DNA from: an uncultured Actinomycetes bacterium
Lineage (GTDB): Bacteria; Actinomycetota; Acidimicrobiia; Acidimicrobiales; RAAP-2
Length of the DNA: 64,000 nt
NCBI GenBank assembly: GCA_903871335.1
Contig: CAIQGE010000009.1
Span: 1-64,000 of the forward strand
Reading direction: 5' to 3'
In this document: positions 1,730-7,044 of the stretch, one piece after another
How the letters are laid out: each line of letters opens with the position of its first letter
Numbering within the stretch: position 1 is the stretch's first letter
Notes under the pieces: generated by a model
Databases searched by the model: none
What the model was told of the DNA's origin: nothing
The model's input: only the letters and a program-made list of their open reading frames with translations
Made by a program: the position numbers and the translations under genes

Positions 1730-2029
1730 CTACTTGCGCTTGGCCGGAGCCTTCTTCGCAACCTTCTTGGCGGCAGTCTTCTTGGCCGGGGCCTTCTTGG
1801 CCGGGGCCTTCTTGGCCGGAGCCTTCTTGACAGCCTTCTTCACCGTCTTCTTGGCGGTCTTCTTTGCCGGAGCCTTCTTGGCCGGGGCCTTCTTGACAGC
1901 CTTCTTGACAGCCTTCTTGGCGGTCTTCTTCGCCGGGGCCTTCTTGGCCGGGGCCTTCTTGACAGCCTTCTTTACAGCCTTCTTGGCCGGAGCCTTCTTG
2001 GCCGGGGCCTTCTTCGCGGCAGTAGCCAC
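1730..2029 (-). CDS. Histone H1-like Lys/Ala/Pro-rich DNA-binding protein
   Basis: The 99-residue product is almost entirely built from KKAPA and KKAVKKA units, ending in AKRK. Such tails occur in histone H1-like proteins, AlgP and the C-terminal tail of mycobacterial HupB, where they bind DNA nonspecifically and compact it. Here the tail stands alone with no HU fold. The start is GTG at 2029, preceded by an exceptionally good ribosome site, AAGGAGGGAAA. The coding DNA is a 15-bp-scale tandem repeat, so length may vary between strains. A role in nucleoid organisation is inference from composition. Confidence 0.8.
1746..2018 (-). repeat. Degenerate tandem repeat coding for KKAPA units
   Basis: On the plus strand the blocks GCCTTCTTGGCCGGG/A and GCCTTCTTGACA recur about sixteen times with few changes, all in the same frame. 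The near-identity at DNA level, including synonymous positions, suggests recent expansion by slippage or unequal recombination. Confidence 0.8.
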
Positions 2030-2325
2030 TTTCCCTCCTTGGGACTCAACGTTGAATCAATTCGGGACCTAGAAAACACCACCGTGATGTTTTCAGTACA
2101 GCGGTACCCATTGACGCATCATGAACTCGATCGTGAACGACCCAGCCACCCGGCTGTGTCACTTCCGAACGCAGTGCACGGCACGATCAAGTTTCGGCTT
2201 TCATCACATGACTCGCGAACGAAGACATCAATAAAAAGTGATCCGAACTTTCACGTACAACGAAAAGTTCACTCTCTTTTGGAACCAATGTCAAGCATTT
2301 CGATAAACGACGGTTGTGGCGAAGT
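2030..2325. other. AT-richer intergenic region with a dyad
   Basis: About 296 bases separate the divergent lysine-rich gene and the TraG-like gene. The region is visibly less GC-rich than its surroundings, mainly at 2160-2325. It holds a dyad with 7-bp arms, GAACTTT (2245-2251) and AAAGTTC (2264-2270), 12 nt apart, a possible operator. Short open frames here have no ribosome site and no family resemblance. I see no oriT-like nick site. Confidence 0.45.
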
Positions 2326-3636
2326 ATGAATGACGACGACATTTATCTCGGAGCAACTCGTCACGGGGTGGCGCGCGCATCATCGCAACGATCTGTTCTC
2401 GCGCTTGGACCGTCGCGTAGTGGCAAGACGTCGTCCCTCATCATCCCCAATCTCTTGACGACGTCTCGTTCGGTCATTGCAACGTCGACCAAGGACGATG
2501 TAGTTCGCGCCCTAGCGTCATCGCGCCGCGATTGTGCAACGTTGCTGTTTGACCCGAGCGGCGTTGTCGACACTCCTCCGGGCGTACGACGTGTTGGATA
2601 CTCCCCGATTGCGTCATCGCGCACGTGGGACGGAGCAGTTCTCTCCGCGCGCAGTTTGGTCTCCTCCACTCGACGCGTTCTCGACGAAAGGGGCGACGAC
2701 CATTGGACCGAACGAGCAAACGCACTGGTTGCTCCCCTCCTCCACGCCGCTGCGCTGGACGACCGATCAATTGGTGAAGTGGCTTCGGCGGTGGATCGTC
2801 GCGATGCCGCGCGGCCCCTCTCCCTCCTCAGCGAACGATACGGCGAGCATCATCCTGCGGTGTCGCTTCTCACGGGAATTCTCGCGACCGACGAGCGCGA
2901 GCGGTCGGGAATTTGGTCCACGGCGTCGGGCCTCTTCGCGGGCATGCGCACCGAAGGTGCGCGGCAGGCCAGTCGCGAAGCGCCACTCGACATTCCCGCG
3001 TTTCTCGCAGGCGGTCATCACTTACACATCGTCGCGCCCAGTCGACACCAAAACGTGACCACGCCCTTGGTCGTGGGTCTCATCGAAGAAATTGTGGAGA
3101 CGACGTACCAGCGTCACACGCGAGGGGCGCAGGTACTCCTCGCCCTTGATGAAGTGGCCAACGTGGCACCATTGCCGCGGCTGGCGAGCATCGTGTCGGA
3201 AGGTGGTGGCCAAGGTGTCGTGACGTTGGCGTGCTTGCAAGACCTCTCGCAGGCGCGCACGAGGTGGGGCGTGGCCGCCGACGGTTTTCTTTCCCTATTT
3301 CCCACCACTGTCGTGTTTCCCGGTATCGCCGACCGACGAACACTGGAATTGCTCGCCACCCTTGGCGGCGACGTCAACGTGCCGAGCATCACCGACCAGC
3401 GCGATGCTCGCGGTCGGCGTCAGGGGCTGTCATCCTCGTGGCGAGAACAACCGAGAGCGACCGCATCGGACATTGCCCGCGGCCGGCCGGGATTTGCCAT
3501 GGGTCTTGACGAACACAAATCGTTGCGGTGGATTGCTCTCACCCCCGCCCACACGGACCCTCGCTTTCGTACCTACCAAGAGCGTTCACGGACGGTGTCA
3601 TCGCGCGACCGCGCGAGTACCTCTCGTGAGCGCTGA
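2326..3636 (+). CDS. TraG/VirD4-like coupling ATPase lacking membrane segments
   Basis: The 436-residue protein resembles the ATPase domain of type IV coupling proteins, which pump relaxase-bound DNA into a secretion channel. Walker A is GPSRSGKTS with K34; Walker B is [11 protein letters not shown] with D275/E276, followed by the TraM-recognition block of TraG/TraD ([20 protein letters not shown] and a downstream [10 protein letters not shown]). Normal family members begin with two transmembrane helices; this one starts only 27 residues before Walker A and is predicted soluble. ATG 2326 is chosen over an upstream TTG. It overlaps the convergent relaxase gene by 64 bp. No type IV secretion genes are nearby, so function as a true coupling protein is uncertain. 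Confidence 0.85.
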
Positions 3637-4643
3637 AGATCGGGTCGCAGCGCGCGAGGTCCGGTGCGTTCCACGGCACGAATCGATCGAGCGCGCGCCA
3701 GTGAAATCCACTCGTGATCGCGTGGTCGACTCCCTCGGAGTTCTGGGTAGTGATGATCCAGCGACGCCTCGAGATCGGGCAACGTTGACCCGAACGTAGC
3801 GGCATCCATCCACGCACGAACCAGGTCGTGTCGATAGACACGGCCGTGACCGTCGAGAGCGGACCGAAACGCATGTTCGTGAAGGTGATCATCCGAACGA
3901 ACCGGCGGCAGCAACTGTGGCGCTTCCTCGTAGCGCTCGAGGTCACGCTGCCACTGGCCGTGGGCTTCTGCGCGGGTCCACATCTTCTTGGGGTCACGAT
4001 CGGCGTTGTGCCCGCTCCAGAGCGCGCGGAGTCCCTCGTCAACGCCTTCGACGTACTCGATGCCATTGAAGCTGCGCCACGATCGACGTCCCGTTTCCGT
4101 GCGGATACTCGCTCGCAGGACGCCGCGGTACACGGAATCTGCAGCGGCGACGTGGTCGTACAAGGTTCGCGCATCGAGCGACCGGTCGTAATCGCGAGCA
4201 CGCGCAGCAAGGAGAACGTGATCGTGGAGATGCGGGTCACCCAGACGATTGATGCCGTGCGTAAAGCCGGCGACGTCACCGACGGATGTTGGTAGCAACT
4301 CAGTGTCGCCGAGAATGGTTCGCCGAACCCGAGCCGCGTACGTATCGAGGTACGTCAGCGTCGCGTCAACCGCGAGACGATGCGCGCGAACGACACCCCG
4401 CTGCTCCTCCGGGGTTCCCACTGCCAGCAAGCACGACGCCGGTCGCGGGGCGGCGACAATGACGTCGTAGCCCAACAAGGTCCCGCGCGAGCTCCCACGG
4501 AGAATGTCGTCGGCCCGCCGTGCGTCGCCCTCGGCGCGCCACCACCACATCGCCTCGCCGTCTCGGACACCTTCGATTTCTCGCGCTGGATCGTCCGTGA
4601 GATACGAAACATCGTTGGAACGACGCGGCAGAATCCGAATCAT
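3573..4643 (-). CDS. Short MobF/TrwC-type relaxase domain protein
   Basis: The 356-residue protein matches the relaxase domain of MobF conjugation proteins, which nick and covalently hold single-stranded DNA. GYDVIVAAPRPAS (58-70) corresponds to the family block GYDLTFSAPKSVS. Three histidines H129, H140 and H142 (FTHGINRLGDPHLHDH) have the 11 and 2 residue spacing of the metal site of TrwC. Y14 in SYLTDD is a candidate catalytic tyrosine. The helicase half of TrwC/TraI is absent. The ATG at 4643 has GGAGGG upstream; a TTG at 4664 is the alternative. It lies 27 nt after the PafBC-like gene and is probably cotranscribed with it. Active or domesticated is open. Confidence 0.8.
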   Translation of the reverse strand: MIRILPRRSNDVSYLTDDPAREIEGVRDGEAMWWWRAEGDARRADDILRGSSRGTLLGYDVIVAAPRPASCLLAVGTPEEQRGVVRAHRLAVDATLTYLDTYAARVRRTILGDTELLPTSVGDVAGFTHGINRLGDPHLHDHVLLAARARDYDRSLDARTLYDHVAAADSVYRGVLRASIRTETGRRSWRSFNGIEYVEGVDEGLRALWSGHNADRDPKKMWTRAEAHGQWQRDLERYEEAPQLLPPVRSDDHLHEHAFRSALDGHGRVYRHDLVRAWMDAATFGSTLPDLEASLDHHYPELRGSRPRDHEWISLARARSIRAVERTGPRALRPDLQRSREVLARSRDDTVRERSW

Positions 4644-4670
4644 GCGCCCTCCATGAGGACGCAACGGTCG

Positions 4671-6611
4671 CTACAGGAGTTCGATCATTCTGCGAGCCAG
4701 GGATCGACCGGCCTTTTCGCGACCCGCGGACAAAACGGCCGCTGCGGGTCCAGCCTCGACCATGAGCTGCTCTAGGAATCTGTCGTCACGGACACGAAAA
4801 CGTACAACTTCGTCAGTGCCGGTAAACGGAGCCCATTGAGAAGTAGGCAGCGGCTCAAAGAGCCACCGAAGAGATGGGTCTAAAGAGACCGTCACGTCGT
4901 AACCCTCCTCCCCAGGCTGATCCGCCCAATCAATGACCGGATCGGCACTTCTTTCGTTGGTCACCGGCGACGCGGCGTGGATGACGACGATCCGGTCAAC
5001 CCGGAATGTCAGCCACTGCTCGCGTGTTGCGCACCACGCTCGGAAATACCACCGCCCATTTCGCGACGCCATCGCTCGAGGCTCAACCCAGCGCGTCGTG
5101 ACCTCGTCACGAGCGGCTGACCAATAGTCGATCTTCACTTGTTCGTGATGATCAATGGCGTCTCGAATTTTCGACAAGAAGGCTGGCTCGACGTCTGCCA
5201 CTCGCACATTGGCGTGAACGACATTCTCGATCTTGGCGACCAGTCCCTCGAGAACTCGACCGGGATATACCCGAGAGGCTTCCTTGAGCGCGACCAACAA
5301 TTCGAACGTGTCGCGCCAGGTCAGCGGCGACAATTGTTGACCGTCGTCGTAACTCGCCGATCGCACGTAGAGAGGATCGACCGGCTCGTCATCATCGAGA
5401 TCGTCACCGGGCTCGATGTGCACGAGGTAGTCGGTCGTGTCCCTCAGATACTGCAACGCCATCAACCGACTCATGATTGAACGAACAAGCGCGAGGTCAA
5501 GATCACACTTGGCGGCCAAGACGCTCGCCCGCACCGCCGTGGGTTCTTCGTACACGGCGGCAATGAGTTGGAGCGTTTGGGTCAAAATGTCCGCGCGCGC
5601 AGGAGCCAGTTCGGCAAAGTCACTCGACCCGTTCGGTGCCTTGCGCGTGCCGACACCTTTCAACCACGTGACGACGTCGTCGCGGAGAGATTTGGGTCGC
5701 AGCTCGCGTACATTCGGACCAAAGGACAACAGGGCCCGACGAGCAGCCGAAGAATCAACGAAGGAGATGCGCACTTCGACGGTCGTGTCGTCTCGAGGTG
5801 CGATCTCCGCGTCGAAGTCGGCCGACAGCACGGTGGCGAATTCACGACTCGTCAAGAATCGCGCTTCCACCCCATCACGCTCATGGACCGAGCGAGGTTC
5901 CCAGGTTCGTGCTTGTTCGCGTAAAGCATCGGTGACGTCGAAAACGTCACGAGTTACGACGGGTGTCGATTCGATTCGCGAAACTCGAAAACCCTTCATG
6001 GTTTCGGTCGCTAACTCGACTCCGACGACATACGGGGCTCCGCGCCACAGCGTGATGCCCAGGGCCGCGATCTCGCGGAGACGCACTTTGTCATTGTCCT
6101 TGCGATACTGAAAACGCACGACTCGTTGCGTGGCGATGGCGCGAGTCAAAGGTAGGAGGGTTGGCGAAAACACCACGCCCCCGGTCGCTGGTCCGTCCAC
6201 GAAAAGCCTCGCAACGCCTGACGTGCCGATGCCGAGCAACGAGACCGCCCACGAGACCAGCGCTCGTTCGTCGTCGGTGAGACCGAGGGGTGGGGCAAAC
6301 ACTGACGCGGGATCAATTTCGTACGCGTCCACGCCATCGAGTGTTTTCACTGTCGTGATGTCGAAGCCGAGATCGCGAATGGCCGCCTTGTCTCGTTCAA
6401 ACTTCTGGCGGGTGGCGTTGTCGTTGCCGTCGTACGCGCGCTTGCGTCGCGGGATTTTGCCCGTGGAACTGAGGTCGTCGATCATGAGCCGAGCCACGAT
6501 TTCGTCCTGCGTGATGGGCTGACCGGTCGTCTTCGCGTGCACCAGAGTCCAAAACAGCGCAATCTTTCGTTCGCGACTCTCCTCCGTTGCTGCCCTTAGG
6601 ACCTGCGCCAC
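4671..6611 (-). CDS. Fused PafB-PafC-like WYL-domain transcription regulator
   Basis: The 646-residue protein is two regulators in one chain: an N-terminal HTH with WYL domain (about 150-330, RVVRFQYRKDNDK) and a second HTH-like part with WYL domain (about 455-646, VKIDYWSAARDEVTTRWVEP). PafB and PafC are usually adjacent and sometimes fused in actinobacteria; the pair activates the LexA-independent DNA-damage response. The GTG start at 6611 has AAGGAG six bases upstream. The usual Pup-proteasome and tatA/tatC neighbours are not next to it; instead a relaxase gene follows at 27 nt. PafBC identity is likely but other double-WYL regulators exist. Confidence 0.8.
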   Translation of the reverse strand: MAQVLRAATEESRERKIALFWTLVHAKTTGQPITQDEIVARLMIDDLSSTGKIPRRKRAYDGNDNATRQKFERDKAAIRDLGFDITTVKTLDGVDAYEIDPASVFAPPLGLTDDERALVSWAVSLLGIGTSGVARLFVDGPATGGVVFSPTLLPLTRAIATQRVVRFQYRKDNDKVRLREIAALGITLWRGAPYVVGVELATETMKGFRVSRIESTPVVTRDVFDVTDALREQARTWEPRSVHERDGVEARFLTSREFATVLSADFDAEIAPRDDTTVEVRISFVDSSAARRALLSFGPNVRELRPKSLRDDVVTWLKGVGTRKAPNGSSDFAELAPARADILTQTLQLIAAVYEEPTAVRASVLAAKCDLDLALVRSIMSRLMALQYLRDTTDYLVHIEPGDDLDDDEPVDPLYVRSASYDDGQQLSPLTWRDTFELLVALKEASRVYPGRVLEGLVAKIENVVHANVRVADVEPAFLSKIRDAIDHHEQVKIDYWSAARDEVTTRWVEPRAMASRNGRWYFRAWCATREQWLTFRVDRIVVIHAASPVTNERSADPVIDWADQPGEEGYDVTVSLDPSLRWLFEPLPTSQWAPFTGTDEVVRFRVRDDRFLEQLMVEAGPAAAVLSAGREKAGRSLARRMIELL

Positions 6612-6705
6612 TCACGACTCCTTATTTCGTCTGACAGACCCCTGCAGACTACGCTGGCGACAGTTGAGCCGTCGGAGTACCAGCACCCCGAAGGGAACGC
6701 CCGTA

Positions 6706-7044
6706 ATGACCAATCGAATTCTCTATCAGGACCGCACCGCGGCGCTGATGGACGATGCTCTAGTCCTTCGTGGCTTCACGAAGATTCTGGGACGTCCGCG
6801 TCGCTTGGCCTTGTCACAAATCGTGGCGTTTCGTGTACGTGAGCGCAGCGACTTCCCGGATGAAGAGCTTCCGAGTTGGGGAAAAGACGACCGTGGCGTG
6901 TGGTACACGAGAGACCCGCGCCGATGGCGCCGCATGCAATCGATCGAGCTCATCTTGGATAACGGGGACCAGTTTGGTTTCTCACCCGCTCACCTGAATC
7001 GCTTTCGCGAATTGATGTCGCAGCTCAATATTCCGGAGCGCTGA
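6706..7044 (+). CDS. Small conserved-looking protein of unknown function
   Basis: The 112-residue product is not recognised with confidence. Alternating short hydrophobic and charged strands (ALMDDALVLRGFTKIL, ALSQIVAFRVRER, SIELILDNGDQFGF) and a final helix look like a small PH-like beta fold. ATG 6706 follows GAAGGGA at a 10-base distance; a TACGCT -10 box lies at 6650-6655. It has no signal peptide or membrane segment. It overlaps the convergent moaC by 20 bp. Function unknown. Confidence 0.7.
   Translation: MTNRILYQDRTAALMDDALVLRGFTKILGRPRRLALSQIVAFRVRERSDFPDEELPSWGKDDRGVWYTRDPRRWRRMQSIELILDNGDQFGFSPAHLNRFRELMSQLNIPER

Follow-up and report, generated by a model that had tools for sequence, protein, structure and literature searches.

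Contig C9 of an uncultured Acidimicrobiales genome (G000; 2.23 Mb on 39 contigs, itself incomplete) opens with the 64 kb analysed here, hereafter the window. Near its left end the window carries four genes that an initial annotation had joined into a possible domesticated DNA-processing module: a TraG/VirD4-type coupling ATPase (traG), a MobF/TrwC-type relaxase, a fused PafB-PafC regulator (pafBC) and a small H1-like protein (Table 1). All four stand as real genes, supported by profile, PDB and structure-model matches and, for the H1-like one, by composition; the profile search that had been asked for (TrwC, TraG-D_C and WYL) returned a match in every case. Window position 1 is the contig's first base, and nothing to its left is visible. 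The module is resident, selected and vertically inherited, and its relatives lie outside integrative elements.

Table 1. Features of the module and its surroundings in the window, by position.
Feature	Position	Strand	Evidence
Lys/Ala/Pro-rich H1-like DNA-binding protein, 99 aa, divergent to traG	1730..2029	-	composition
Structured RNA, leader of H1-like gene, 23-pair hairpin	2108..2184	-	covariation
Promoter-like TTGACA (2294-2289), 17-nt spacer, TGAACT (2271-2266), H1 leader	2266..2294	-	genus alignment, inspection
traG copy of shared motif, variant CGACGGTTG, just before ATG 2326	2308..2316	+	genus upstream regions
TraG/VirD4-type coupling ATPase, 436-440 aa, ATG at 2326	2314..3636	+	Pfam, motifs, structure model
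3'-end overlap of convergent traG and relaxase, 64 bp	3573..3636		37/37 genomes
MobF/TrwC-type relaxase, 356 aa	3573..4643	-	Pfam, active-site residues, structure model
Shared motif CGACCGTTG, directly past pafBC stop codon, ahead of relaxase	4662..4670	-	genus upstream regions
Fused PafB-PafC WYL regulator, 646 aa	4671..6611	-	profiles, PDB match, motif

The relaxase starts at the ATG at 4643, with an additional in-frame TTG at 4664. It scores 92.7 bits against the Pfam TrwC relaxase profile PF08751 (cut-off 25) and 81.7 against the NCBIfam MobF model, which is under that model's cut-off of 100, and the best 27 PDB matches of its AlphaFold model (pLDDT 89.6) are all TrwC/TraI MobF relaxases, with E-values down to 7.8e-11. 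Among 31 sequences from the genus, Y14, H129, H138, H140 and H142 are invariant despite a mean identity of ~53%; these residues include a three-histidine metal site (H129, H140, H142) and an N-terminal catalytic-type tyrosine, of which the genus relaxase has one whereas TrwC has tyrosine pairs. A profile search of the 356-aa protein found no match to a helicase domain; because the relaxases of family f28 retain one (AAA_30), its absence in family f1 looks like a loss. Five genomes of the genus (G008, G012, G015, G028 and G034) also encode a long, ordinary MobF relaxase elsewhere, and these extra copies presumably represent true mobile elements.

The ATPase matches the Pfam families T4SS-DNA_transf (62 bits) and TraG-D_C (60.5 bits), its Walker A (GPSRSGKT) and Walker B (LLALDE) motifs are the same in all 28 genus sequences compared despite ~68% mean identity, and its AlphaFold model, a TrwB-like fold with an all-alpha insertion, matches the coupling proteins Cag-beta and TrwB. 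The conserved start lies ~28 residues ahead of Walker A, so the usual membrane anchor is absent; the Pfam match opens at profile position 37, and the frame holds no N-terminal membrane domain, as judged from the start position and the Pfam alignment. Orthologous traG genes (above ~230 bits) occur in 19 families of the order, and none at that score was found outside it in the class or phylum samples. Two small plasmids, a 13.8-kb one from Rhodococcus (L338) and an 18.4-kb one from Mycobacterium kansasii (L337), carry a coupling protein ~33% identical to that of traG but no annotated type IV secretion system (T4SS); they may depend on the machine of a host or be related to the ancestor of the module.

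The regulator has two WYL domains and one WCX domain above cut-off, PDB matches to PafBC for both halves (E 1.9e-15 against the solved structure 6sj9) and, by inspection, the arginines of the FRxxRI motif in each half (FRVSRI and FRVDRI). The WYL arginines of PafBC sense single-stranded DNA (ssDNA), and mycobacterial relatives are switched on by it (PMC11804915). No WCX protein other than PafBC was found in the window's own genome. The spacing of 27 nt first reported for pafBC and the relaxase (stop codon to ATG) is confirmed, and it measures 22-34 nt across the genus wherever the start can be placed. A single read-through pafBC-relaxase frame, open over 1012 aa, was considered and discarded: a TAG lies between the two, hence they are separate genes. 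The relaxase and the ATPase do lie side by side, as had been described, but they are convergent and overlap at their 3' ends (by 37-67 bp in nearly all genomes of the genus, and with a single exception by 1 mod 3), so that a common transcript is possible for pafBC and the relaxase alone. These two may be cotranscribed as suggested, though a motif lying between them, discussed below, may place the relaxase under separate control. Between pafBC and moaC, at 6664-7044 on the plus strand, lies a gene for a 126-aa protein with relatives in loci L041 and L042 only and with no Pfam or NCBIfam match.

Our genus sample consists of 36 relatives plus the window's genome, 37 in all, most of them incomplete metagenome-assembled genomes (MAGs); named public records label the genus MAGs as Acidimicrobiaceae/Acidimicrobiales or as actinobacterial, with bog, palsa and lakes among the sampling sites. 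Single genomes may be contaminated, which would leave the genus-wide pattern intact. pafBC, the relaxase and the convergent traG occur in single copy in 37 of 37, so the order that the initial annotation had proposed to look for in related genomes recurs far beyond chance, while the orthologous relaxases of the 36 relatives are 36-53% identical to the window's copy. The 20 extended genus loci share the core neighbourhood cofC-H1-traG-relaxase-pafBC-moaC-fmdB-tldD-dxs, with two tldD-like genes. Protein distances follow those of dxs (rank correlation 0.76 for the relaxase, 0.89 for traG and 0.88 for pafBC) and correlate among themselves at 0.84-0.89; dN/dS is 0.07-0.30 for the relaxase, 0.04-0.19 for traG and 0.05-0.16 for pafBC, like that of the neighbouring cofC or lower. 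Plasmids and IMG/VR contigs held no close relative of the module (plasmid matches below 60% identity).

Core synteny, distances that track dxs and purifying selection thus bear out the earlier view of a resident module rather than a recent transfer. Had the segment been a decayed element, the pair of relaxase and ATPase might have been expected only inside integrative elements; the relatives instead carry it in one core neighbourhood, and conservation, purifying selection and synteny rule that reading out. Integrase, partition and replication genes are absent from the flanking conserved loci, no family search having been made over all 64 kb. One could still suppose that an integrated conjugative element became fixed as a non-working remnant, given the helicase lost in the genus relaxase yet kept in f28, the reduced T4SS described below and, in G110, a relaxase reading frame that stops early; set against the purifying selection, the invariant active sites, the conserved 3' overlap and motif spacing, and a gene order kept in 37 of 37 genomes and across families, this is highly improbable.

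Loci in other families were chosen from the best relaxase and traG matches, which biases their frequencies. Two more genera of the same family carry the module (L098-L100), and the linkage of PafB-PafC to a relaxase, real in the window, is found again in about ten of the order's families: pafB-pafC or a fused pafBC immediately precedes a MobF relaxase, or nearly so, in f21, f28, f31, f33, f39, f43, f45, f47 and f48, with relaxases of 390-1042 aa in the other families, and a convergent traG lies behind the relaxase in f1, f21, f31, f47 and f48. The f39 operon runs prs, rplY (L25), pth, pafB, pafC, relaxase, a housekeeping setting. Relaxase sequences cluster by family.

That no secretion apparatus accompanies the pair, as had been noted, is correct for the neighbourhood and incorrect for the genome. 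VirB4 profile searches uncovered another conserved locus, of five genes, flanked by a histidine kinase gene and serS. A gene for a DUF6112/TrbC-VirB2-like pilin opens the operon; the other four encode a VirB6-like protein (so labelled from position and hydrophobic sequence only), a member of the SCO6880 family, an ATPase of VirB4 type and a second coupling ATPase. In the window's genome this minimal T4SS lies complete on contig C30 (VirB4 at C30:160495-161652), and a VirB4 orthologue is present in 33 of the 37 genus genomes, this one included. The order-wide sample comprised 248 genomes, 73 with traG at a cut-off of E 1e-40 (at least one of them, G280, resting solely on the second coupling-protein family) and 175 without; VirB4 is present in 72/73 of the former and 26/175 of the latter. 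The genomes are not independent of one another, and the count per family is the fairer measure of co-occurrence: 19/19 families with traG against 16/42 without (p 2e-6). G068 (L228) keeps a traG orthologue (278 bits) and VirB4, and at the threshold used it has no relaxase of this type, a traG-only state.

The chromosomal VirB4 (L295:10490-11701, G000 contig C30) also matches the PADLOC family mad8 at 70 bits, and the VirB4 and mad8 families may be confused in defence annotation. Taken together with the small actinobacterial plasmids that have related coupling proteins and no annotated T4SS, this match could point to a helper or defence role toward mobile elements, in which the system would nick or capture incoming plasmids or mobilise resident small ones. 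We consider such a role improbable, as PADLOC gave no defence match for the relaxase or traG and only generic WYL matches for PafBC, and a module so strictly syntenic within the core genome and vertically inherited does not resemble a defence island.

Genes of both loci share a 9-bp upstream motif, CGACCGWTG, with recA, placed at a fixed distance that differs from gene to gene. It was found upstream of the relaxase in 33/36 genus regions (at -20 to -32), of recA in 14/17 (near -50, downstream of a LexA-type box), of the T4SS pilin in 8/13 (at -34 to -38) and of traG in 12/34 in its strict form (at -14 to -16) or 30/34 with a relaxed pattern, against a background of 18/647 that still includes the target genes. 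Outside the four target genes it stays near chance (~28 of 96 matches in 1.8 Mb of genus sequence). Since recA and traG were the genes in which the motif was first spotted, before its test, the relaxase and pilin are the cleaner confirmations; the copies have no flanking sequence in common beyond the 9-bp core. In a ranking by a 15-bp weight matrix derived from recA, traG comes out only moderately high and pafBC does not feature. A LexA-type box, GAACN4GTTC, is present in each of the 17 genus recA promoters read; the promoters of the genus recA loci (L308-L334) combine a perfect SOS box (GAACACTTGTTC type) with a second element, CGACCGATGTSACA-N8/9-TANNNT, an arrangement that recalls the two-promoter recA of mycobacteria. 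PafBC is a candidate binder of the shared motif, because no other WCX protein was found in the genome and its relatives sense ssDNA.

The distribution of the competence protein ComEC provides a further clue to function. ComEC was found in 0/25 genus genomes and in neither of the traG-bearing families f9 and f16, whereas all 14 sampled families without traG have it, so that by family it is absent from 3/3 with traG and 0/14 without; the search control gave a match in 10/14 control genomes. Five of the genomes without traG that were sampled for ComEC do carry a VirB4. A RecA tree gave no resolution of whether the traG-bearing families form one clade.

Based on these observations, we propose that the two loci make up a chromosomal system for DNA transfer that has been domesticated, is co-regulated with recA and is analogous to archaeal Ced, a proposal for and against which the case seems to us about evenly balanced. 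The more far-reaching version, a Ced counterpart with its own relaxase and an adjacent ssDNA sensor that replaces ComEC transformation in much of Acidimicrobiales, is plausible but on balance doubtful. In the proposed system the relaxase would nick chromosomal DNA and stay on its 5' end, and the soluble coupling ATPase would take up the relaxase-ssDNA complex; one or both coupling proteins (T4CP1 and/or T4CP2) would pass it to the complex formed by VirB4, the VirB6-like protein and the pilin, the second locus serving as secretion channel and both loci assembling into one machine. Expression of both loci would rise with recA under DNA damage, and ssDNA arising from damage or from nicking would activate PafBC. 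Chromosomal ssDNA would then move between kin cells, mainly upon damage and instead of transformation; transfer to kin, whose direction is presumed here, would fit the pilin gene and the ComEC pattern.

Several observations weigh against this proposal. No origin of transfer (oriT) or nic site was identified; pafBC itself lacks the shared motif (0/32, with the H1 leader at 0/31); the motif was seen in this genus only and not ahead of the relaxase or traG in other families; and the mycobacterial PafBC (RecA-NDp) motif is at chance level in the window and in the T4SS locus. Some families without traG have VirB4, so the two loci are separable, both genus coupling ATPases lack a membrane domain and VirB4 is short (~400 aa), and given these soluble ATPases and short VirB4 the channel may be non-canonical. 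The ComEC pattern may stem from few evolutionary events. Finally, the Streptomyces cluster cmdABCDEF, which has VirB4-, SCO6880- and VirB6-like parts, affects sporulation and chromosome segregation and did not affect plasmid transfer (PMC2782261). The segregation phenotype of that cluster lends weight to the main rival explanation, DNA processing inside the cell without export: the relaxase would nick or resolve damaged, stalled or entangled chromosomes while the ATPases and a VirB4-type complex pump DNA across the division septum, a role already proposed for cmd. The core location, the motif shared with recA and the PafBC linkage fit repair, and soluble coupling proteins with a reduced T4SS suit an internal motor. 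What makes this explanation unlikely in our view is that a VirB2/TrbC-like pilin gene opens the T4SS operon, that the loss of ComEC in the sampled families with traG suggests a role in exchange, and that MobF relaxases are known as enzymes of transfer initiation.

The presence of relaxases and coupling proteins is usually taken to indicate a mobile element; in this lineage both belong to the core genome and are tied to a damage regulator, recA and a dedicated small T4SS, and mobility-gene surveys will score such loci as conjugative elements. Should the proposed system indeed transfer chromosomal DNA, it would exemplify domesticated conjugation in bacteria and offer a candidate means by which uncultured lineages without ComEC exchange genes. 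It would also link ssDNA sensing (PafBC) to ssDNA production (the relaxase), a connection open to testing.

The H1-like protein, which has PAKKA repeats, is named from its composition, matching HC2 at E 0.01 only. Its gene is in the same place in 19-20 of the 20 extended genus loci and adjoins traG also in L100, L240 and L241; in family f45 (L231:7352-7891) the H1-like sequence beside traG is the Lys-rich tail of an HU-like protein, which suggests that an HU domain was lost on the way to the naked gene seen in the genus. Its inclusion in the module, as first drawn, holds insofar as it adjoins traG in several families; participation is not supported. The 296-nt region between it and traG (2030-2325) is conserved across the genus and contains the leader hairpin, in which 96.6% of cells are paired and 11 pairs have changes on both sides, a level reached by 0/500 shuffles. 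G-U cells outnumber A-C cells by 55 to 4, in favour of the H1-sense strand. The window copy matches the hairpin model at 76.1 bits and by itself is modestly stable (z -1.5). No Rfam family matched the hairpin, and it was seen in this genus alone; it is a candidate new cis-regulatory RNA. An oriT was considered for the region and set aside, as the G-U/A-C asymmetry and a ribosome-binding site further downstream point instead to an RNA leader for the H1-like gene, though an oriT could still lie elsewhere in it. Further left, between the convergent cofC and H1-like genes, a perfect GGGGGGCCTTACGGCCCCCC hairpin (1679-1698) is probably a bidirectional terminator.

Among known systems, the nearest in function is Ced, the crenarchaeal DNA exchange system, a domesticated chromosomal conjugation machinery (PMC9905601) that is induced by DNA damage (PMC11868833). 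Its VirB2-, VirB6- and VirB4-like parts are chromosomally encoded, as here; Ced is archaeal and imports DNA, whereas the putative genus system has a MobF relaxase, two VirD4-type ATPases and PafBC. The nearest in distribution is the T4SS of Patescibacteria (PMC12102498), which is chromosomal, phylum-wide and of a monoderm VirB2/VirB4/VirB6 type but mostly lacks a relaxase, which is conserved in our genus. The Gonococcal Genetic Island (PMC4207684) likewise joins a chromosomal T4SS to relaxase-type processing and releases ssDNA; it is a strain-variable island, in contrast to a genus-wide core trait. The Streptomyces clusters cmdABCDEF and SCO6871-6884 share chromosomal VirB4-, SCO6880- and VirB6-like proteins, a likeness that amounts to SCO6880-family similarity, and PMC2782261 reports no link to a relaxase or PafBC, both of which the genus system has. 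A genus-wide core MobF relaxase beside PafBC is not reported in the available parts of PMC9905601, PMC12102498 or PMC4207684, nor do those of the other literature searched mention PafBC together with a relaxase. With TrwC, F TraI and TrwB/VirD4 of plasmids, the genus proteins have in common the fold, histidine motif, tyrosine position and Walker motifs; unlike them, the relaxase lacks a helicase, the coupling protein lacks a membrane domain, and the pair is convergent and sits at a core chromosomal locus with no element genes alongside. The regulator resembles mycobacterial PafBC (PMC6789036, PMC11804915) in its fused or paired WYL-WCX architecture and ssDNA-binding arginines, but mycobacterial pafBC adjoins pafA, whereas in this genus pafBC, without the mycobacterial-type motif, precedes the relaxase.

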